The position numbers and the translations under genes were made by a program. This document shows, piece after piece, positions 19,251-61,051 of a stretch of DNA of 64,000 nucleotides; the first letter of the stretch is position 1, and every line of letters begins with the position of its first letter. The DNA comes from Nostoc sp. NIES-3756 (GTDB taxonomy: Bacteria; Cyanobacteriota; Cyanobacteriia; Cyanobacteriales; Nostocaceae): positions 3,568,501-3,632,500 of the forward strand of contig NZ_AP017295.1 in assembly GCF_001548375.1 (NCBI RefSeq), given 5' to 3'. Below the pieces are notes generated by a model. It searched no databases. It saw only the letters and a program-made list of their open reading frames with translations, and was not told the DNA's origin.

Positions 19251-21752
19251 GTGTCCCAGGAATTTCACATTTCTGTAACCCCAGTAGGAAAGGATGACTA
19301 CTTGGTGCGAACTGAGAAAGTCGCGCCTGGGGTTCCTTTGGCGGAAGAACTGGTGACATGGCCTGTGGCTGATTGGTTGGCGGCGGCTGGGCATTTGATG
19401 AATGACCCATTAAAGTCTGTATTACAGGGAGATATGTTTCTCTCTCGTGGGGGAGAAAGTGCGATCGCCAGAAATTCTGTTAACTTAGTAGCACTGGGTC
19501 AACAACTATATAATGCACTGTTTCAAGGCACTCTCAGAGATAGCTGGATTACTGCCCAAGGAATTGCCCAAAATCATCAACAAGTACTACGTTTACGGCT
19601 AGGGCTGAAGGATACTAGGTTAGCACGTTTGCCTTGGGAAGTCATGCACGCAGGCGATCGCCCTTTGGCAACTGGCCCCTACATTGCTTTCTCTCGTTAT
19701 CAAAGCGGCATTTCTCCTGGTTCCCGTTTACCTTCAACCAATAGACTCAAGCTTTCAGATGATGGTGTAGTCAGAGTTTTAATGGTACTCTCATCACCCG
19801 CAGATAAGACGAGTTTGGATTTACTCAAACAAGAATCTATTAGGCTGCAAGCTGAACTCCATCGTCAACTACCCAGAACCATCGAAGGTGGTAGTTATCT
19901 GCCAGAAATTGACCTGACTTTACTTAACCAACCAGGTAGAGAAGAATTAACCCAAGCCCTAGAACAAGGAAGATACCATGTTTTACACTACTCCGGTCAT
20001 AGCAACTTGGGGCCGAATGGTGGGGAAATTTATTTAGTAAGTAGTCGCACTGGTTTAACAGAAACCCTCACTGGCGATGATTTAGCGGGTTTGTTGGTGA
20101 ACAATAATATTCAGATGGCTGTATTTAACTCCTGCTGGGGTGCATACACAGCTACCTTAGATAACAACGACTCAGGTGAACGCAACCTTACAGATAGTTT
20201 AGTGAAGCGCGGTATTCAAAGCGTGTTGGCAATGTCAGAACGTATTCCCGATGAGGTGGCGCTGACTCTAACACAATTGTTTTACCGTAACTTGAGTCAA
20301 GGATACCCGGTGGATTTATGTGTGAGTCGGGTACGCCAAGGATTAATTTCTGCTTACGGTTCACATCAGCTTTATTGGGCATTACCAATCTTATATTTTC
20401 AACCGGGGTTTGATGGTTTCCTTAGTCCCAGAATTGCCAGTGCTACTCATGTAGATTCATTAAACGAATATAGTTCACCTCTGCCAACCAATGCCGCAAC
20501 CACTTACTCTGGTGTGTTAGATGATGCGGATGTGGGTTTGCCTATAGAAGAAATGATTTCCTCTGGGTTGGCGCGTGACTCTGGGTTGGACTGGTTGGGT
20601 GAGGAAACTTGGGGCGATCTCGTAGATGAAATTGAGTACGATGATCCCAGTTATGCCGAAGATTCGGCTTTTGTCTCCGATATATTTCGTCAACTAGATC
20701 AGCAAGGTATCAGGGATGAAGAACCTGATCTACCTCCAGAAGTTGGGCAACCTTTACTAGATAGTCATTTAGAACGGCAGATTTCTCCTGCACCAAGGGA
20801 AGATTACTCAAGTATCGTCCCACCAGCAAATCATCAGACTGCCCAAAACCTGAGTCAAGAGTTAGAAAAATTCCGTCTCCTTGCAGCAAGAGATCGTGTC
20901 CGTCGCAAGCGCTGGCAAATTGCCGGGATAATTGGCGCAGGTGCGATCGCCGCTATACTGATTTTTACTTGGTGGTGGCAAACTCGTCGCATATCAATAG
21001 TCCGTGACTTACCCCCAATTCCTGCCCCATCCGCATCTGTAGAAACGCCAACTCCACCAATGGATCTACGGCAAATGCCTACAGGAATGCTAACAGCTAC
21101 GGCTACCACAAAATTCAATCAAGACGATTTGGAAGGTGGGTTAGCAGCTGTAGAAGAATTACTCAATCGCAACGCCTTAAAACCCGCCCAAGCAGCATTG
21201 AATCTAGTACCATCAGACCAAAATAAGCAAGCAACGGTAAACTTCCTCAGAGGAAGATTGGCTTGGCAGGCTATCCAAACAGGAGATAAACAATACAGTA
21301 TTGATGATGCCCGTCGTTACTGGGAAACTGCGGCGAAAGCTAACCCAAATTCATTCAAATATACCAATGCTTTAGGATTTGCTTATTACGCTGAGGGTAA
21401 TATTAACCGAGCAAATGACACTTGGTTCCAAGCATTAAATTTAGCACTCAAACAAGGAAGTATAACTGCAACAGCAGAAATACCTCCTAGATCCGATGTG
21501 CCGCTAGAGGCTTTACCTGCTTATGCTGGTTTAGCTTTGGGGATGTATAAATCTGCGCGTGATTTACCCCCAGATAAACAAGCACAATATATGAATGAAG
21601 TCCTAAAATTACGCCAAGCCGTCCTAGAAAAAGACCCGGTAAATTATCAGCTAGACGAATTAAGCAAAAATTGGCTCTGGACAGAACCAATTTTAAAAGA
21701 CTGGCGATCGCTCTTACAATATAATGCCAAGCAGAGTAGGCAGTCCCAATGA
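19251..21752 (+). CDS. hetF: Heterocyst differentiation protein HetF (CHAT protease)
   Basis: 833 residues. HetF is a caspase-like CHAT-family cysteine protease needed for heterocyst differentiation; with PatA it controls HetR levels. The start is a GTG preceded by AGGAG; the N-terminus MSQEFHISVTPVG fits. The CHAT domain covers about 100-400: LPWEVM near 128, the histidine in HYSGHSN (His250) and the cysteine in VFNSCWG (Cys295), both intact. A membrane helix (IAGIIGAGAIAAILIFTWWW) lies at about 555-576, and the C-terminal part resembles TPR-like helices (GLAAVEELLNRNALKPAQAA). The nsiR1 array immediately upstream, antisense to the probable leader, implies post-transcriptional control by NsiR1. 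Confidence 0.95.
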   Translation: MSQEFHISVTPVGKDDYLVRTEKVAPGVPLAEELVTWPVADWLAAAGHLMNDPLKSVLQGDMFLSRGGESAIARNSVNLVALGQQLYNALFQGTLRDSWITAQGIAQNHQQVLRLRLGLKDTRLARLPWEVMHAGDRPLATGPYIAFSRYQSGISPGSRLPSTNRLKLSDDGVVRVLMVLSSPADKTSLDLLKQESIRLQAELHRQLPRTIEGGSYLPEIDLTLLNQPGREELTQALEQGRYHVLHYSGHSNLGPNGGEIYLVSSRTGLTETLTGDDLAGLLVNNNIQMAVFNSCWGAYTATLDNNDSGERNLTDSLVKRGIQSVLAMSERIPDEVALTLTQLFYRNLSQGYPVDLCVSRVRQGLISAYGSHQLYWALPILYFQPGFDGFLSPRIASATHVDSLNEYSSPLPTNAATTYSGVLDDADVGLPIEEMISSGLARDSGLDWLGEETWGDLVDEIEYDDPSYAEDSAFVSDIFRQLDQQGIRDEEPDLPPEVGQPLLDSHLERQISPAPREDYSSIVPPANHQTAQNLSQELEKFRLLAARDRVRRKRWQIAGIIGAGAIAAILIFTWWWQTRRISIVRDLPPIPAPSASVETPTPPMDLRQMPTGMLTATATTKFNQDDLEGGLAAVEELLNRNALKPAQAALNLVPSDQNKQATVNFLRGRLAWQAIQTGDKQYSIDDARRYWETAAKANPNSFKYTNALGFAYYAEGNINRANDTWFQALNLALKQGSITATAEIPPRSDVPLEALPAYAGLALGMYKSARDLPPDKQAQYMNEVLKLRQAVLEKDPVNYQLDELSKNWLWTEPILKDWRSLLQYNAKQSRQSQ

Positions 21753-53744: not shown

Positions 53745-56021
53745 ATGGAAAATGATGCGGCAACGCTCTACTGTCCAAATGAAGTTTGTCAGGCTCCTAA
53801 CCCCCTGACTCACAAGTTTTGCCAGCGATGCTCCACACCCTTACCCAAGCGTTATTTGTGGGTGGTGGGTGATAGTCTGAGTGTTGACAGTGCCGGAACA
53901 ATATTAGGCGATCGCTATTTAATTATCAATAAATCTGTTGTTTTAGATACTAAGCCAGGTTTATTACCCCAAACGCCTGAGTTAGAAAATACCCATCCCA
54001 TCAGACCTTATCTGCGCCTCATTCCTTATCGTTTACATATCCCGCAGGTCTACGGAGTGACATCTGTAACTGATGGCAACCTCCACAGTCAAGTTTTGTT
54101 GTTAGAAAAAGCGCCAGTTTTTGCAGACAATTTAGCTCAACAGGTACATTTATGTAATGAGTTTACTGATGCTTGGCGCTACGCTTCGTCAATGCGCCAA
54201 TTACATTGGCTGTGGCAAATTGCTAACCTTTGGCAACCTTTTAAAAGTGAAGGGGTCGTTTCTAGTTTACTCAACCCCTACCTGTTGCGAGTAGAAGGGC
54301 CATTAGTACGGTTATTAGAACTACAATCTGACTCGGCAACAGCACCAGAATTGCCGCAATTAGGTGAATTTTGGCAGCAGCTACGCCAGGAAGCTAAACC
54401 AGCCATAGCAGAATTTGTTGACCAAATTACTCATAAACTCATTCAAGGTGACATCAGATCATCAGAACTGCTAGTTGCCGTTTTAGACCAAGGGCTAACA
54501 GAATTAACGAAATTCCAAGCTACCACCATCCAAATTGCCACACAAACTGACACTGGCCCCAGTCGGCAACGGAACGAAGATGCTTGTTATCCTCCTAGTG
54601 GCACACTATTAAGTAAACCACCCCAATCAACCGCCTTGGCTATTGTCTGTGATGGAATTGGTGGACATGAGGGCGGAAATGTCGCCTCAAATTTAGCCAT
54701 TGAAACTATCCAACAGCAGGTACAACAACTGACAAATGTACCAGTAGATCATATTGAACCTGCTCTTTTAATAGCTGATTTAGAAAGGGCTGTGGCCATT
54801 GTCAATGACAAAATTAGTCAGCGCAATGACAGCGAAAACCGCCAAGGGCGAAAACGCATGGGTACAACCTTAGTGATGGCGTTACCTATTGCTCACGAAA
54901 TGTATATTACCCACGTTGGTGACAGTCGCGCCTATTGGATTACCCGCCAAGGTTGTTATCAAGTTACTCTTGATGATGATGTAGCATCACGGGAAGTAAG
55001 ATTAGGTTATGCAATTTATCGTGAAGCAGTTCAGCAAGGTGGATCTGGTTCCTTGGTGCAAGCTTTAGGCATGAGTCCTAGCAGTTCGCTACATCCCACA
55101 GCGCAACGATTTATCCTAGATGAAGATGGAGTTTTTCTGTTGACTTCTGACGGTTTGAGCGATTTTGACCGTGTAGAAGATTACTGGGAAACGGAAATTT
55201 TACCTATTCTCACTGGTGAAGAAAATAATATTGTGCATGTGGTGGAGCGATTGGTGAGCATTGCTAACACCAAAAACGGTCATGATAACGTCACCATTGC
55301 TCTAGTTAATTGTCGAGTTAAATATACTGAACCACAGATAAGTCTAAAGGCTGTTGTTCCCGAAAGCACTAATATCAAAACTGTCAATTTGACAGCAAAG
55401 ACACAACAGTCAACATTACTAGAAAATAACTCGGAACAAAAAACCAAAGTAGTTGCTAACAATTTACCCAACAGAATCAGTAAACTACCCCTAAGTTGGC
55501 TCGTACCCTTAATTTTGGTGGCAACTGCTGGTGTCTTCGGTTACTGGGTAATGTTACTACGATCGCAATATGCCATCCCTACGTCCACCCCAACTCAGAT
55601 TATACCCTCAGCCACAAACAATCCCAAAGTAGAGCGATCGCTAGATAATCTGGCCTCTGGATGGATAATTCAAACGACAAGTCCAATCACTGTCAATGAA
55701 CAAAAATTAAATCCTGAAAGTTTTTTAGAAGTTATTGATAAAAAAGCTAATCCAAAACCAGAGTCTGGTGGTTATGACGTGTATCTACGTCTGTGTAACA
55801 ATCCCGTCCCAGCTAGTTCCAACAATCTGGCTACAAAGCCTCCCGCACCTTCAGATCAACCACTCAAAATGGAATTAGCCCAACTTAAAGGGTATGCTGT
55901 CAAAGTTTTACCACCTGATCAAGTTAGTCCTTGCGATAGTGCCACCTCTGCTAAAGATAGCCTACCTTCTACACCAAATCCCGCAAATAATCCGAGTACA
56001 ATTGATTCCAACACTCCATAA
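53745..56021 (+). CDS. Membrane-anchored PP2C-type protein phosphatase with N-terminal zinc ribbon
   Basis: 758 residues. The N-terminus has Cys10, Cys15, Cys26 and Cys29 (YCPNEVCQAP, FCQRCSTPL), a zinc ribbon. A region of about 220 residues follows, which I cannot place but which resembles a degenerate kinase-like part (GDRYLIINKSV). The PP2C domain is at about 262-525: RQRNEDACYPPSG, IVCDGIGGHEGGNVAS, MGTTLVMAL, THVGDSRAYWI, LLTSDGLSDF and GHDNVTIALV, with all metal-binding aspartates. One membrane helix lies at about 582-602 (WLVPLILVATAGVFGYWVML), followed by an extracytoplasmic tail of about 150 residues. It would dephosphorylate Ser/Thr phosphoproteins. The CHAT-FHA protease gene follows on the same strand after 326 bases. 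Confidence 0.9.
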   Translation: MENDAATLYCPNEVCQAPNPLTHKFCQRCSTPLPKRYLWVVGDSLSVDSAGTILGDRYLIINKSVVLDTKPGLLPQTPELENTHPIRPYLRLIPYRLHIPQVYGVTSVTDGNLHSQVLLLEKAPVFADNLAQQVHLCNEFTDAWRYASSMRQLHWLWQIANLWQPFKSEGVVSSLLNPYLLRVEGPLVRLLELQSDSATAPELPQLGEFWQQLRQEAKPAIAEFVDQITHKLIQGDIRSSELLVAVLDQGLTELTKFQATTIQIATQTDTGPSRQRNEDACYPPSGTLLSKPPQSTALAIVCDGIGGHEGGNVASNLAIETIQQQVQQLTNVPVDHIEPALLIADLERAVAIVNDKISQRNDSENRQGRKRMGTTLVMALPIAHEMYITHVGDSRAYWITRQGCYQVTLDDDVASREVRLGYAIYREAVQQGGSGSLVQALGMSPSSSLHPTAQRFILDEDGVFLLTSDGLSDFDRVEDYWETEILPILTGEENNIVHVVERLVSIANTKNGHDNVTIALVNCRVKYTEPQISLKAVVPESTNIKTVNLTAKTQQSTLLENNSEQKTKVVANNLPNRISKLPLSWLVPLILVATAGVFGYWVMLLRSQYAIPTSTPTQIIPSATNNPKVERSLDNLASGWIIQTTSPITVNEQKLNPESFLEVIDKKANPKPESGGYDVYLRLCNNPVPASSNNLATKPPAPSDQPLKMELAQLKGYAVKVLPPDQVSPCDSATSAKDSLPSTPNPANNPSTIDSNTP

Positions 56022-56347
56022 AAATTCCAAGTTCAAAATTACTCAAAAGATTATGCGTGCAGACGTAGGGGTATTAGCATCTTAAATTTAAGATAAACTA
56101 ATAAAAAGCTGAAATAATACAGATAGTAACAAGATGCTATGCACAAGCTAAAAGATTTCCTCAAAGGAATCATACTTGGCAGGTATCACAAAGACTGCTG
56201 AGTTCTTTACTTCCCTATGGGAAGCTAGACCAAAAGTTGCACTTTGGTGTAGAAGAACAAACTCAGTGAGTATATTCTTGAATTTTGTAGGCGTAAGCCT
56301 TGAATTAGGCAATTTTAAATTGTTTGTACCCTGTAGTGACCTAATCC
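56022..56347. other. Spacer between phosphatase and CHAT-FHA genes
   Basis: AT-rich, with no terminator-like hairpin seen, so co-transcription remains possible. Short open frames on both strands look random. Confidence 0.35.
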
Positions 56348-57916
56348 ATGCCATCCCTGAATCTGGCGATCGCCCGTCTCATCAATACTGGCAAAGATAG
56401 TTTCGCCATTTGGGTGGTTAAGGCTCCCTATCCCAGTGGCTATGTTCTGCGTGATTGTGTTTGGCCTGTTGAACTCACCCAAGTTTGGCAAGAGTGGCAG
56501 CAAATGTTTGTTGGCCACAGTGGAATTTACATTTCTTCAGATACTAAACCCCCCTTAACAAACCCAGTACCTTGGAATTTAGTTTCACCCCCCTCTAACC
56601 AAACCACTGGTTATGGTAGTCGCCTCATGCAATATTTGGGGATGAATTTGTGGCGTTGGATTTTCGATGGCTCAATTCTAGGGAGTTTGGAACGTAGTCG
56701 TGGTATCGCTATGGGTCAGCATACACGCCTGCGCTTTCGTTTAGAAATTCGTGACCCAGATTTAATTGCCCTACCTTGGGAAATTATGCAACGGGAACCC
56801 GGTCAGCCGGCAGTCTCTCTTTCCCCAGATGTATTATTTAGCCGGACTACCAGTGAAGTTGAAGCTTTACCATATTTACGCACTGACCAAGCCCTAAAAG
56901 TGCTTTTAGTTCTGGGACATGACCAAAACCTGCAACTGCAAAAGGAAGCCGCTATCCTAGAACAAACTTTGTTACATGGTAGTCATTCCCATAGTTACGC
57001 ACCCTGTAGTGTAAAAACGCTCATCCAGCCCACTCCCCAAGAGCTGATTCAAGAGTTAGAAACCAAAGCATACAATGTCTTTTTTTATGCTGGTCACGGT
57101 TTACCAAATCCTGACGGTGGGTTGCTGTTTTTGCGCCCAGGCATGAGTCTTAATGGTATCGAATTAGCCCAAGTATTAACCCGCAGCGCCTTAAAATTAG
57201 CGGTGTTTAATGCCTGTTGGGGCGCACAACCAGCAGCTATTAATCATCAGGCTATCCCTACTAGTAGTTTGGCAGAAGTATTAATTCGTCACGGTGTGCC
57301 GGCGGTTTTGGCAATGCGAGACGAAATCGCTGACCGTGAAAGCCACAGTTTTATTCAAGCGTTTGCAGAAGCGTTGCGATCGCGCAAAGCCATTGATGAG
57401 GCAGTGGCAGAAGCTAGACAAGAACTGCTAACACTATATAAATACAATCAACCAGCTTGGACTTTACCCGTTCTCTACCTCCATCCCGATTTTGATGGTG
57501 AACTCATCAAAAGTTTTGATGAAAGTGTAACGGAAATGCCAGATACGGTTCTTCCTAATTCTGACACTCCCCGGTTGATTGCTTCGTTGCGATCGCTCTC
57601 TCCCGGAGGTCGCACTTGGTATTTAAGAAGTGGTGTTACTCGTATCGGTCGCACAAAAGATAACGATATCGTTATTCCCGAACCTTCTGTGTCTAAGCGA
57701 CATGCCGAAATTTTATGTCGCAATATTTTTACAAATACGACTCAAGCTTCCTCTTATTATCTCCAAGATTTTTCTACCTACGGCACAACTTGGTTTTTAG
57801 GGGCTAACGGTTGGCAACAACTCCTGCGGGAAGAAGTTCCTTTAAAATCAGGTATGCAGTTAAAATTTGGTAGTTCCAGAGGTGAAATTTGGGAATTTAT
57901 TATAGAAGATGCTTAA
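56348..57916 (+). CDS. CHAT-domain (caspase-like) protease with C-terminal FHA domain, HetF-related
   Basis: 522 residues. The CHAT domain is at about 90-390, with IALPWEIM near 140, histidine in FFYAGHGLPNPDGG (His250) and cysteine in VFNACWGAQ (Cys290). The spacing and flanking sequence resemble HetF (His250/Cys295; LPWEVM), so the two look like paralogous CHAT modules. HetF's membrane helix and TPR-like tail are absent. Instead there is an FHA domain at about 424-515: YLRSGVTRIGRTKDNDIVIP with Gly434-Arg435, and SVSKRHAEI with Ser449/Arg451/His452. FHA domains bind phosphothreonine peptides, so substrate or partner choice may depend on phosphorylation. The PP2C gene upstream and FHA-PrsW gene downstream fit that view. 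Confidence 0.9.
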   Translation: MPSLNLAIARLINTGKDSFAIWVVKAPYPSGYVLRDCVWPVELTQVWQEWQQMFVGHSGIYISSDTKPPLTNPVPWNLVSPPSNQTTGYGSRLMQYLGMNLWRWIFDGSILGSLERSRGIAMGQHTRLRFRLEIRDPDLIALPWEIMQREPGQPAVSLSPDVLFSRTTSEVEALPYLRTDQALKVLLVLGHDQNLQLQKEAAILEQTLLHGSHSHSYAPCSVKTLIQPTPQELIQELETKAYNVFFYAGHGLPNPDGGLLFLRPGMSLNGIELAQVLTRSALKLAVFNACWGAQPAAINHQAIPTSSLAEVLIRHGVPAVLAMRDEIADRESHSFIQAFAEALRSRKAIDEAVAEARQELLTLYKYNQPAWTLPVLYLHPDFDGELIKSFDESVTEMPDTVLPNSDTPRLIASLRSLSPGGRTWYLRSGVTRIGRTKDNDIVIPEPSVSKRHAEILCRNIFTNTTQASSYYLQDFSTYGTTWFLGANGWQQLLREEVPLKSGMQLKFGSSRGEIWEFIIEDA

Positions 57917-58328
57917 AAGGAGGTTAGAGATTAGAGAGAAAAATTTAGTTGTAAGTTTTTAAGTGTAAAGATTTCGCCAAAAGATATTACATGCTTAAGC
58001 ACAATATACATAGTTAATTATCATAATTTTTTCATCTTCCTAATTATGTATTTAGTTTGGAGATTTTATTTATAAAATGTTCACTTATGAGGGAATATTC
58101 TTGTAGCGTTTCTTAGGCAAGATGTTGTTAGCTGCTTGTGTCAAAATTCGTTGTAATCCGCCTAAAAGGGGATTGAAGGTAAAACCATCAACCACAACTT
58201 ATAACTGACACAAGCAGTGCAGTAAAGGGTGAATGTAAAGATTAAAATAACCTATTTTTTTTGCGGAAATCTCAAACTGTCTACTGTAGCTTTCATTGTC
58301 AACAATTTTATTTCACAAGAGGCTATCA
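57917..58328. other. Intergenic with a CRISPR-repeat-like sequence between short inverted repeats
   Basis: CTGCTTGTGTCA (58132-58143) and TGACACAAGCAG (58206-58217) are perfect inverted repeats. Between them, about 58150-58179, GTTGTAATCC...GGGGATTGAAGG resembles the ends of Nostoc CRISPR repeats (GTT...GGGATTGAAAC type). Only one copy exists, so it is not an array. The remainder is AT-rich. Confidence 0.4.
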
Positions 58329-58976
58329 ATGACTCATAGAATTAACGGTTCAGACACTCACCATTCTGTAGTATCTCAAATCGAACTAGATTTATTAGCA
58401 GCGTTACTAGAACCAGAGGATGCAGCTTATCCTTGGAATCCCAATGATGCTGAGTCAGAAGCATATTTTGACGAACTCGAACGGCAATTTGCAGCCCAAG
58501 AGGTTTTAGACGAAGAACTGACAACTAGAGCGCAGGTTTTTTACAACCAACTCGATAACCTTTGGTCTGGAGTCAGCAATGCTTCATGTTACAATGATAA
58601 TACAGAGTTCACAGTTGTAGCTCACCTTCAAGAAAATTTACATACAGCTTTTGCGGCTGGTATTCCTCAAGCTTTGCTAAATGCGATCGCTACTAAAGCA
58701 GCAGAGATTGTTACTTCTGGGCAATCTTTAGGTGAGCAATTAGTAGAGTGTGTACAAAGTGTATTACCCACATGGGGAACAGATGACTTGTTAATCTTCA
58801 CCCGTCCCTATGCTTATGCTATGCGGAGCCGGGAAGACCAAACTCTCACATCTATAGTTGATAAAGTTAATAATCAAGAGTGGTCTGATTTATCAGAAAT
58901 CGAACAGGCAAAGATGAGTGTAGCGATCGCTTATTATGCTATCAAACAGCTAAATGACTCTCAACTCGAAGCCTAA
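58329..58976 (+). CDS. Hypothetical acidic protein, 215 aa
   Basis: The start is the ATG at 58329 with AAGAGG six bases upstream; the frame is open 11 codons further. The protein is acidic and mostly helical (SQIELDLLAALLEPEDAAYP, YFDELERQFAAQEVLDEELT, TWGTDDLLIFTRPYAYAMRS). It has no signal peptide, membrane helix or recognised motif. It lies between the CHAT-FHA protease gene (same strand) and the FHA-PrsW gene (convergent), which makes it worth testing as a partner or substrate, but nothing in the sequence shows this. Confidence 0.7.
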   Translation: MTHRINGSDTHHSVVSQIELDLLAALLEPEDAAYPWNPNDAESEAYFDELERQFAAQEVLDEELTTRAQVFYNQLDNLWSGVSNASCYNDNTEFTVVAHLQENLHTAFAAGIPQALLNAIATKAAEIVTSGQSLGEQLVECVQSVLPTWGTDDLLIFTRPYAYAMRSREDQTLTSIVDKVNNQEWSDLSEIEQAKMSVAIAYYAIKQLNDSQLEA

Positions 58977-59311
58977 ACTATACAGTTCTTTTGTTTATTC
59001 TTATCCTGATTTAACTCCGGTGAACAGTTGTATTGCTCACAGGTAGTATTATTGTGGAAATTTTTAAATCTACAGTATTAGCTTTTACCCATAAAAACCA
59101 CCGTAGTGTAAACATAAGCTGATGAAGAAATTAGCACAATCTACCCTAAGACAGATAATACTAATTCGTAATTCGTAATTCGTAATGGGCTACGCCCCGC
59201 TACGCTAACGTAATGCGTAATGCGTAATTAACCGTACTTTTGACTGCTTTAGTCTAAAGTCCAGATCATCACTCAGCACGCGCTAAACGCGCCGCTACGG
59301 CTAACAGCACT
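58977..59311. repeat. Intergenic with ATTCGTA/ATGCGTA heptamers and dispersed palindromes
   Basis: Three ATTCGTA units at about 59165-59185, then TGGGCTACGCCCCGCTACGC, ATGCGTA units (about 59211-59230) and the CAGCACGCGCTAAACGCGCCGC piece at 59275-59296, which is shared with 29015 and with recJ. No gene. Confidence 0.7.
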
Positions 59312-60649
59312 CTATTTATTATCAAGAAAACGAGTAGCAAAATTTTGCGATCGCGTAGGTGATAATGCCCTAGCCTTCAGAATAGCTGCCATCAAGAAAG
59401 CATAAGACAAGACCCCAACAACGACTAAGAGTAAATTATTGCTGTGTCCTGCGGTATTCCATAAAGCGTGAAGTGCGGCGGCGCTGAGGTAGCCAACGGC
59501 AAGAATTTGTTTAGCATGACGGGGTTTGAGTGCAGCTAACCCGATAAAATAACCCAAATAGCCGCTATAAGCCATATGTCCGGCTGGCAAACCTAATATT
59601 CTGGCAATTAAGACCTGTAAACCAACATCTGTACCCGCTTGTATAGACGCGGCTGGTACATATTGACCGAGAGTTTCTAATAAAGTGAAGCCAACAGCCG
59701 AAGCTGTTCCTAAAAGAATCCCATCCAAAGGTTCCCAAATACCAATCCGCTCCCGCCAAGGTGATGGTAGCCCTAAAGCGATGAGATATGCTGCCAATAT
59801 GGGTAAGGCTTTGAGTAATTCTTCCATTAACCCAGCGCCAAAAAAGTACCCCACAAATAACTCTGTGAGGCTGTTGACTGGTTGATCTACTGCTGGTACA
59901 TCACCAGGAAGAATTACACGAAAAATGTAAATAAATAAATTTAATACCGGACTGAGCAAAATTAACGTTGTCGTCAAAGCTGCACTGACTAACACCCACC
60001 AGGGTTTAGGTTTACCACACAGTTGGTAAATAAAATAGTAAGCAGCTAAAGCGATATAAGTTGCTACTATGACTTGATTGGCTTGTGGCCTGCCTACCGT
60101 GGCAAACATCAGCACTACAAATACTACTGTCAGTATTCCTGGGACAAGGTAAGCTTTACTTGTCAAATCCTTCCCAGTGGAAATGATGGGAAACAGTTGA
60201 GTAAAGCTAACTGAATCTGGCTTGTTTGGGGAATTTTTAGCTGAAGGTAGAGGTGAAGCTTGGTTAGTGATGATTGTAGGTTGGGGTGCAACGGCGTACT
60301 CAAAGAGAAATTCCGGGCCATCCGCGCCTAAGGAAATGCGATCGCCTGCGTGCAATTCCTGACACCCATACAAGCGTTGACCGTTTAAATAAGTGCCATT
60401 AGCACTGTTTAAATCACAAAGTACCCAGCTAAATGTGTTATCTACAGATGAAGCGACGGGACGAACCACAGCATGACGGCGGGACACCATGCGATACATC
60501 ATGGCATCTAAAACAACTTGGCAGCTGGGATCACGTCCAATTACTACCTCTTTACTGGTAAGCGAGTAGCGAGATTCTGATCCAAATGCCGCTCCATTAC
60601 CAGACACTAGCCGCAGAAAAGCATTATGTCTTGCGTTTTTGCCTGTCAT
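59312..60649 (-). CDS. FHA-domain PrsW-type intramembrane metalloprotease
   Basis: 445 residues. An FHA domain is at about 25-118: EVVIGRDPSCQVVLD with Gly38-Arg39, MVSRRHAVV with Ser56/Arg58/His59, and NSANGTYLNG. The rest is a polytopic membrane protein with about eight helices and the PrsW signature: FFGAGLMEELLKALPILAAY (Glu276-Glu277), a third Glu in FTLLETLG (Glu325), His358 in LPAGHMAYSG and His394 in LHALWNTAG. PrsW proteases cut membrane proteins such as anti-sigma factors. The FHA domain on the cytoplasmic N-terminus suggests recruitment by phosphorylated partners. It is convergent with the hypothetical protein gene and near the PP2C and CHAT-FHA genes. Confidence 0.9.
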   Translation of the reverse strand: MTGKNARHNAFLRLVSGNGAAFGSESRYSLTSKEVVIGRDPSCQVVLDAMMYRMVSRRHAVVRPVASSVDNTFSWVLCDLNSANGTYLNGQRLYGCQELHAGDRISLGADGPEFLFEYAVAPQPTIITNQASPLPSAKNSPNKPDSVSFTQLFPIISTGKDLTSKAYLVPGILTVVFVVLMFATVGRPQANQVIVATYIALAAYYFIYQLCGKPKPWWVLVSAALTTTLILLSPVLNLFIYIFRVILPGDVPAVDQPVNSLTELFVGYFFGAGLMEELLKALPILAAYLIALGLPSPWRERIGIWEPLDGILLGTASAVGFTLLETLGQYVPAASIQAGTDVGLQVLIARILGLPAGHMAYSGYLGYFIGLAALKPRHAKQILAVGYLSAAALHALWNTAGHSNNLLLVVVGVLSYAFLMAAILKARALSPTRSQNFATRFLDNK

Positions 60650-61051
60650 CGAGTAGGTTTTTCCAAACTAATTCCTAAAATACCTTGGCATTGGAGGTTA
60701 AATTGGCCGCGCCAATAGCAGCATTGATAAGTACACTATAGCTCTACTCTTTACGAATAAATTTAAAATTCACTCATACAAAATTTAAAATTATTTCTCT
60801 TAATTTTGACAAGTCTTCTTCTTATAAAAAGTATAGTTTGTACCTTATTTATTAGATGGGTCAATTCTAAAAATCCTGTAATTAATAAAAAGTACAGATG
60901 GTGAACAAATTTAGTCATTAGTCAACAGTCCATAGTCAAAAGTCAATGGTTAGTTGTCATTAGTCATTAGTTCATAGTTACTAATTACTTTCTTCTGATT
61001 CCTTGTCTCCCTTGTCTACACCCTCCCTTATCTCTCCCCACTCTCTACTCC
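60650..61051. repeat. Intergenic with heptamers and CT-rich tract
   Basis: AT-rich to 60910, then GTCCATA, GTCATTA and GTCAACA heptamers (60912-60978) and a CT-rich tract related to the minisatellite (61003-61052), which reaches the end of the GntR gene. Confidence 0.65.

Follow-up and report, generated by a model that had tools for sequence, protein, structure and literature searches.

A predicted CHAT-FHA protease and its putative substrate in a conserved gene neighbourhood of Nostoc sp. NIES-3756

Within a neighbourhood of four genes in Nostoc sp. NIES-3756, the real pair consists of CHAT-FHA, a predicted cysteine protease of the HetF/Csx29/separase type, and ORF3, the small protein encoded next to it, which the original prediction had left as unknown. 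We favour, with moderate confidence, an explanation in which CHAT-FHA cuts ORF3 as its dedicated substrate after Arg166, probably under phospho-control through the FHA domain, while the PrsW-type protease encoded nearby acts separately. The window analyzed comprises 64,000 nt of contig NZ_AP017295.1 (positions 3,568,501–3,632,500), and features are given in window coordinates.

53745..56021, + strand: PP2C phosphatase, membrane (Pfam PP2C_2, hydrophobic segment, aligned relatives)
56348..57916, + strand: CHAT-FHA protease, 522 aa (Pfam domains, predicted structure, 163-sequence alignment)
57095..57097, + strand: catalytic His250 of CHAT-FHA (163/163 sequences)
57215..57217, + strand: catalytic Cys290 of CHAT-FHA (163/163 sequences)
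57530..57532, + strand: Thr395, candidate phosphothreonine for the FHA domain, within linker motif T-x-x-P, in most cases TELP (163-sequence alignment)
57638..57871, + strand: FHA domain of CHAT-FHA (Pfam; Arg435 and Ser449 kept, canonical Asn replaced)
58329..58976, + strand: ORF3, acidic all-helical protein of 215 aa, predicted CHAT-FHA substrate (homologue start, model, co-occurrence)
58803..58826, + strand: ORF3 segment R159–R166, RPxAxxMR (alignment columns lost mainly in CHAT-less lineages)
58824–58826 (codon), + strand: predicted cleavage point after Arg166 (same columns)
59312..60649, − strand: PrsW-FHA, N-terminal canonical FHA domain and C-terminal PrsW membrane protease (Pfam, aligned relatives)
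60833..60851, − strand: weak match (6/19 mismatches) at the position of the published FurA box of alr1728, lying 202 bp upstream of where PrsW-FHA begins

Gene order and the four proteins

The genes are arranged as PP2C > CHAT-FHA > ORF3 < PrsW-FHA. They lie where the original prediction had placed them, and the catalytic residues of all three enzymes, which it had called apparently intact, are conserved. PrsW-FHA is on the minus strand, convergent with the other three, and the four genes thus do not form one operon. The arrangement is found again across families, also outside the taxonomic order, with the order and strands of CHAT-FHA and ORF3 repeated in 17 families among the 148 genomes sampled; this recurrence is more than chance. 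Proximity, whose absence from related genomes had been named as the mark of chance neighbours, is kept within the order and in six genomes outside it, and the complete four-gene block is present in two genomes outside it. Proximity alone proves little, however, because this ancestral block also includes the housekeeping genes ndhM and def, which are kept there about as often (ndhM adjoins PP2C in 15/21 loci, def adjoins PrsW in 16/24).

In the predicted structure of CHAT-FHA, a two-lobed CHAT fold (residues 1–388) is followed by a low-confidence linker (residues 393–408) and an FHA domain (residues 431–508). The CHAT domain (PF12770) matches at 73.4 bits (cut-off 24), and the FHA domain at 50 bits, above the Pfam cut-off. 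The phosphatase matches PP2C_2 at 44 bits, also above the cut-off; its single hydrophobic segment (residues 580–607) and its catalytic aspartates (D279, D303, D469 and D514, invariant in 21/21 aligned relatives) bear out the earlier description as a membrane PP2C. Its N-terminus contains a zinc-ribbon-like set of four cysteines, below the Pfam cut-off and invariant in the same 21 relatives. PrsW-FHA combines an FHA match of 65 bits, above the Pfam cut-off, with a PrsW (PF13367) match of 129.5 bits (cut-off 23.5), and E276, E277, E325, H358 and H394 are invariant in 24/24 aligned relatives. Identity with the PrsW equivalog NF033739 was rejected (23 bits, cut-off 225). ORF3 is strongly acidic, as previously noted, with a net charge of −24, and is all-helical in the structure model; no Pfam family scores above its cut-off. 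Its start, here corrected, is more likely at 58329, which matches the nearest homologue, P0001.

The locus probably corresponds to alr1728–all1731 of Anabaena PCC 7120, judging from gene order, strand and a published FurA box, such that PrsW-FHA would be the counterpart of alr1728, ORF3 of all1729, CHAT-FHA of all1730, and the PP2C of PrpJ (all1731). The FurA box of alr1728 was published at 205 bp (PMC4005646). The box matches better in close relatives, upstream of the PrsW gene. The PP2C fits the place of PrpJ in being membrane-anchored and in its order and strand; this assignment is by gene order and FurA box, the name all1731 being absent among the 120 matches listed. PrpJ is reportedly a plasma-membrane PP2C for heterocyst maturation, while alr1728 is a Fox gene, needed for aerobic nitrogen fixation. 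A 2010 list of ten genes common to filamentous cyanobacteria, including HetR, PatU3 and HetZ, contains all1729 in this "filamentous core" set without an assigned function (PMC2821919, Table 4).

CHAT-FHA is coupled to ORF3

The presence of CHAT-FHA is strongly correlated with that of ORF3 (phi 0.84 among 148 genomes, 0.96 among 244). The two genes are kept jointly even where they are unlinked, and in four genomes they decay jointly, with a PrsW-FHA match that is free of stop codons. ORF3 outlasts CHAT in a few lineages (it remains at full length without CHAT in f18, f10, f25 and f26), and the reverse is almost never observed, the exception being G336, which has an intact CHAT gene and no ORF3 that could be found. 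This pattern is the asymmetry of a protease and its substrate. Presence and absence do not support the CHAT–PrsW pair of the original prediction (phi 0.35): CHAT occurs without PrsW in 33 genomes, and PrsW without CHAT in 14. The two genes are near each other in 31 of the 68 genomes having both. The four-gene system as proposed is partly supported, by the conserved proximity and not by the co-occurrence of CHAT and PrsW.

The FHA domains also differ. Among 163 CHAT-linked sequences, R435 is kept in 161, S449 in 163 and H452 in 159, whereas the Asn of the NGT loop is present in only two and replaced by Tyr, Phe or His in 161, so this domain is not a textbook phosphothreonine reader. The PrsW FHA is canonical, with N84 kept in 24/24. 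FHA domains of GarA, MDC1 and DUN1 are among the sequence matches of the CHAT-linked domain. Thr395 of the disordered linker, kept like Pro398 in 162/163 sequences and lying in a stretch of pLDDT below 50, is a candidate phosphosite for the protein's own FHA domain. Thr395 may serve something else, since the domain mostly lacks the Asn and two sequences without the FHA Arg still carry Thr395. The ORF3 alignment contains no conserved Thr for the domain to read. Phospho-gating of CHAT-FHA is plausible.

These data bear on two broader readings. That both proteases are aimed by one phosphopeptide code, erased by PP2C, would suit their common FHA domains, their proximity and the complete blocks outside the order; we consider it quite improbable in view of the weak CHAT–PrsW correlation, the persistence of PrsW where CHAT and ORF3 have decayed, the Asn that only the PrsW domain keeps, and the frequent adjacency of PrsW to def. 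More improbable still is an ancestral gene-order island of unrelated members, co-occurring through lineage and genome size. The positions of ndhM and def agree with it, and among the genomes listed as lacking CHAT as well as ORF3, several measure just 3–4 Mb and some are larger. Such an island adequately explains PP2C and PrsW but fails for CHAT-FHA and ORF3, being contradicted by their unlinked retention, their joint decay and a CHAT-dependent constraint confined to one segment.

The R159–R166 segment and a predicted cut

By column scan and tree, R159–R166 is the one segment of ORF3 lost in CHAT-less lineages. Arg166 was lost four times without CHAT and never with CHAT present; the CHAT history (five losses and one gain) was obtained by parsimony on a gene tree and includes few CHAT-less lineages. 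The site test was made after the motif had been seen to be absent in two sequences, a bias that is reduced, though not eliminated, by the scan and the tree. Retention of Arg166 in G017, G134 and G051 counts against the favoured explanation; G070, without CHAT, retains AYAMR (its assembly is 77% complete), and the ORF3 proteins of G080 and G024 are generally diverged, making the alignment there less sure. Overall, the constraint on this segment depends on CHAT; this, like the co-occurrence, the joint decay and the asymmetry, is a computational finding, while the cut, its effect and the phospho-control are predictions.

CHAT-FHA probably cuts ORF3 after the conserved Arg166. This single cut would remove the last 49 residues and switch ORF3 on or off, and ORF3 would have its own job, persisting where the protease is lost. 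Control would probably be exerted via the FHA domain, whose ligand would most likely be phospho-Thr395 of its own linker, in cis or from a second molecule, or alternatively a phosphorylated partner; the neighbouring PrpJ-type PP2C could reset the mark. PrsW-FHA would be a conserved neighbour acting separately, perhaps in parallel. Initiator caspases are activated by induced dimerisation, and a more detailed version, which we regard as unlikely, would have phospho-Thr395 of one CHAT-FHA caught by the FHA domain of another, leading to activation by dimerisation and to cleavage of ORF3 after Arg166 as part of the development of filaments or heterocysts, with the phosphatase as the off switch.

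The segment could instead be a docking surface, with ORF3 an uncut adaptor, activator or inhibitor and the true substrate elsewhere. Tight co-occurrence and a CHAT-dependent segment suit any direct partner, and Arg166 is at a helix end rather than in an open loop in the model. We find this unlikely, as a pure adaptor should not outlast its protease in the way that ORF3 does. The invariant Arg closing the constrained segment also resembles the P1 site of a clan CD protease with a preference for Arg.

Significance and comparison with known systems

To our knowledge, substrates are known for few caspase-like proteases of bacteria; in the present case, comparative genomics points to a protease together with its probable substrate and predicts one site of cleavage. 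If correct, this would be a second CHAT protease–substrate pair beside HetF–PatU3, flanked, should the locus assignment hold, by a heterocyst-maturation phosphatase and an aerobic nitrogen fixation gene, and would tie together phosphorylation, proteolysis and bacterial multicellularity. CHAT-FHA and ORF3 suggest that multicellular cyanobacteria possess a so far unstudied proteolytic switch, encoded next to genes associated with nitrogen-fixing cells.

HetF, a CHAT protease of cell division and heterocyst development that can cleave PatU3, is a separate gene in the same window (19251–21752). Its CHAT domain is 34% identical to that of CHAT-FHA over 312 columns, with the same His and Cys positions, and its partner PatU3 belongs, like all1729, to the filamentous core set (PMC2821919, Table 4). 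However, HetF is described as having a transmembrane segment and TPRs (PMC8406250) and has neither an FHA match nor a TELP-type motif. CHAT-FHA itself was rejected as HetF (NF045509, 153.6 bits over the CHAT part only, cut-off 1200): it has no hydrophobic segment and, by Pfam search, no TPR match, carrying an FHA domain instead. The CHAT fold is also shared with Csx29 (TPR-CHAT, with Csx30, of the type III-E CRISPR Craspase), which is described as activated by Cas7-11 and target RNA via its TPR domain (PMC10028731). In CHAT-FHA, the fold starts at residue 1, leaving no room for N-terminal TPRs, and an FHA domain is present in place of the activating TPR domain. Separase, 13–18% identical over the aligned part, is a much larger protein and, as far as we know, lacks an FHA domain. 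The PP2C is the probable orthologue of PrpJ, judging from how the neighbouring locus tags are ordered and oriented. In GarA/OdhI and Chk2/MDC1, the FHA domain is bound by a phosphothreonine of the protein's own flexible stretch, in cis or between molecules. The phosphothreonine proposed here would likewise lie in a flexible stretch of the FHA protein itself, but in CHAT-FHA the canonical Asn is replaced and the FHA domain is joined to a protease.

Organization and conservation of the four-gene block

The genome harbouring the window (7.0 Mb) is cyanobacterial and belongs to the Nostoc/Anabaena group, and the nearest named homologues of the window proteins are from Nostoc and Anabaena strains. 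Four genes occupy 53.7–60.6 kb, the last being convergent with the others on the opposite strand:

53745–56021, +, membrane PP2C phosphatase
56348–57916, +, CHAT-FHA, a CHAT protease with an FHA domain
58329–58976, +, ORF3, a small acidic protein
59312–60649, −, PrsW-FHA, a PrsW-type protease with an FHA domain

The PP2C, CHAT, FHA and PrsW domains of the original prediction all score above Pfam cut-offs, and the catalytic residues it described as intact are invariant across aligned relatives of the enzymes. ORF3 has no Pfam family above cut-off; its start is probably 58329, giving 215 residues as in its nearest homologue. The PP2C N-terminus (53745–54500, +) contains four cysteines (C10, C15, C26 and C29) invariant in 21/21, with a zinc ribbon below cut-off, and a long conserved region precedes the phosphatase domain alongside this four-cysteine start. 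HetF, the best-studied cyanobacterial CHAT protease, is encoded at 19251–21752 (+), 35 kb from CHAT-FHA, and its CHAT part is 34% identical.

Gene order was analyzed in 148 Cyanobacteriales genomes, with each gene represented by its highest-scoring match in a genome. Of these genomes, 101 were accepted as having CHAT-FHA (105 were matched; G005, G023, G047 and G080 were rejected as carriers, being matched through HetF-like proteins only), 82 have PrsW-FHA, 144 have PP2C-like proteins (paralogues included) and, at E 1e-6, 107 have ORF3, of which one is a remnant. Genes lie within 5 kb of each other in 45 of 97 genomes with both placed for PP2C-CHAT (orientation identical in 45/45; 13 families), 59/96 for CHAT-ORF3 (17 families; same strand, 55 with CHAT first and 4 with ORF3 first), 43/71 for ORF3-PrsW (convergent in 43/43) and 31/68 for CHAT-PrsW, all of which are lower bounds, since many assemblies are in pieces and the top-scoring PP2C of a genome may not be the one next to CHAT. 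Beyond the order, the whole block occurs in two genomes and PP2C-CHAT-ORF3 in three; a further genome keeps PP2C-CHAT together, its ORF3 lying at another place. Proximity, with recurring order and strands, is thus conserved within the order and in six genomes outside it. However, in 40 loci of 12–20 kb chosen around the four genes, ndhM adjoins PP2C in 15/21 and def (peptide deformylase) adjoins PrsW in 16/24; since these housekeeping genes share the block, the gene order reflects an old island and does not prove a functional module.

The def gene stands beside PrsW-FHA in many families (L061–L080 and others), but no def was detected at this position in L058–L060 of family f1. In one locus outside the order (L186:5115–6110, genome G192), a second ORF of 331 residues directly upstream of PP2C matches the PrsW-FHA model weakly (27 bits).

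Co-occurrence and joint decay of CHAT-FHA and ORF3

After profile searches of the discordant genomes of the order sample, intact CHAT-FHA and full ORF3 occur together in 97 of the 148 genomes, CHAT alone in 1 (G030, 61% complete), ORF3 alone in 10 and neither in 40 (phi 0.84; 0.78 with three broken CHAT copies scored as present, 0.81 with ORF3 remnants also). The corresponding numbers for a phylum sample of 244 genomes are 58, 1 (G336), 3 and 182 (phi 0.96), where the two samples overlap and raw phi ignores relatedness. Concordant differences recur within families f8, f21 and f30. For comparison, CHAT/HetR gives phi 0.63, with HetR above cut-off in 86/148. Both genes are retained even when distant, 93 kb to 2.2 Mb apart in seven genomes and on separate contigs in 30 more, although six of the latter have a match near a contig start and may perhaps represent assembly breaks.

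CHAT-FHA and ORF3 also decay together in four genomes, some of them draft assemblies: CHAT is truncated and ORF3 reduced to a 33-codon remnant (G044); CHAT is split and ORF3 diverged, with an open frame of 197 residues (G123); CHAT is in several pieces and ORF3 matches only positions 8–122 of 204 (G127); or CHAT-FHA is missing and the ORF3 remnant contains a stop (G023). We consider it very probable that the two proteins are direct partners. A stop-free PrsW-FHA match persists in all four genomes. Presence and absence do not support the CHAT-PrsW pairing of the original prediction: both occur in 68 of the 148 genomes, CHAT only in 33, PrsW only in 14 and neither in 33 (phi 0.35), and PrsW is unlikely to act in the same pathway as CHAT-FHA and ORF3.

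ORF3 could be an adaptor or a substrate of the protease. ORF3 persists without CHAT in six f18 genomes and in G080, G024, G051 and G070, while CHAT without ORF3 is seen only in G336 and the incomplete G030; this asymmetry fits an adaptor less well than it fits a protease dependent on its substrate, the substrate in turn having an independent role. Two f18 loci (L065 and L066, from G017 and G102) lack CHAT-FHA between PP2C and ORF3 with the other three genes in place, forming a natural protease-free locus.

A CHAT-dependent segment in ORF3 and the FHA domain of the protease

Absence of a motif (RPxAxxMR, R159–R166) was first noticed in two f18 sequences, and all 21 ORF3 columns conserved at ≥90% were therefore scanned in 76 sequences (64 from CHAT genomes, 10 CHAT-less and 2 with a broken CHAT). 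The columns differing most between CHAT and CHAT-less genomes are M165 (61/64 vs 1/10) and R166 (64/64 vs 4/10), followed by W149, L104 and R159. In 119 further homologues from a protein search, whose CHAT status was unchecked, R166 is found in 119 and M165 in 118. On a FastTree tree of 75 sequences built without columns 160–169, with G123 scored CHAT-less, R166 shows no loss along 51.3 branch-length units where CHAT is present, against 4 losses along 6.6 units where it is absent (p 1.7e-4, becoming about 0.004 when corrected for 21 columns). Corresponding losses are 0 vs 3 for R159, 1 vs 3 for A162 and 2 vs 4 for M165; the remaining 17 columns have no excess of CHAT-less losses, including W149 and L104, whose difference is a single lineage-wide change in f18. 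Against this site, CHAT-less G070 (77% complete) retains AYAMR, Arg166 is retained in G017, G134 and G051, and ORF3 has diverged in G080 and G024. On balance, we lean towards ORF3 being a CHAT-FHA substrate that is cut after Arg166.

An alignment of 163 CHAT-FHA sequences (43 diverse and 120 from a protein search) shows conservation of FHA residues Arg435 (161/163), Ser449 (163/163) and His452 (159/163), with the canonical Asn in only two. The low-confidence linker ahead of the domain is poorly conserved apart from Thr395 and Pro398 (each 162/163). The window HetF has neither an FHA match nor a Thr395-Pro398-type motif. Since Thr395 is nearly invariant and ORF3 has no conserved Thr, Thr395 would be the best candidate if the FHA domain reads a fixed phosphothreonine, and we hypothesize that it is so read. 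However, two sequences without the FHA Arg (L184 and L189) retain Thr395. Phosphothreonine control of CHAT-FHA through its FHA domain is possible but doubtful.

Probable Anabaena counterparts and known CHAT systems

The locus is likely, though not proven, to be equivalent to alr1728–all1731 of Anabaena PCC 7120. Passages of PMC6161253 equate prpJ with all1731 and cite, by title, PrpJ as a plasma-membrane PP2C involved in heterocyst maturation. PMC4005646 lists alr1728 as a Fox gene of unknown function, credited to Lechno-Yossef 2011, and places a FurA box 205 bp ahead of it. In Table 4 of PMC2821919, all1729 is one of the ten genes given as the core set of filamentous species, a set that also contains HetR, PatU3 and HetZ. 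The strand letters alr1728-all1729-(all1730)-all1731 agree with PrsW-ORF3-CHAT-PP2C. The assignment was tested by scanning the upstream regions of PrsW-FHA genes for the alr1728 box. In a free search, the best match lies at 203, 204 and 208 bp in L098, L099 and L154, and at other positions in most loci, including the window. Within a fixed interval of 198–213 bp (82 rows, three of which derive from the window itself), mismatches number 3 in L099, 4 in L098 and in L154, and 6 in L100 and in the window; among 2943 background stretches taken from these upstream regions, none has ≤4. The second FurA box was looked for and not found. An Npun_R1517 family protein (PF18068; 51064–51444, −) adjoins ndhM and, from its position and strand, is perhaps the orthologue of asr1734, described in part of PMC4005646 as a negative regulator of heterocyst differentiation.

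Among the open-licence papers searched, we found none naming all1730, and none of the matches listed, passages of PMC8195603 and PMC3482391 included, showed a description of a CHAT or a PrsW protein with an FHA domain. Another CHAT protein of PCC 7120, all2170, is linked to heterocyst development in a section of PMC10811720, and is a different gene from the one studied here. According to excerpts of PMC12288457 and PMC10028731, HetF is able to cleave PatU3, and Csx30 is cleaved by Csx29. These systems combine a CHAT protease with a dedicated partner, as proposed here for CHAT-FHA and ORF3, which, if true, would add one more such pair. CHAT-FHA differs in carrying an FHA domain where TPRs stand in HetF/Csx29-type proteases.
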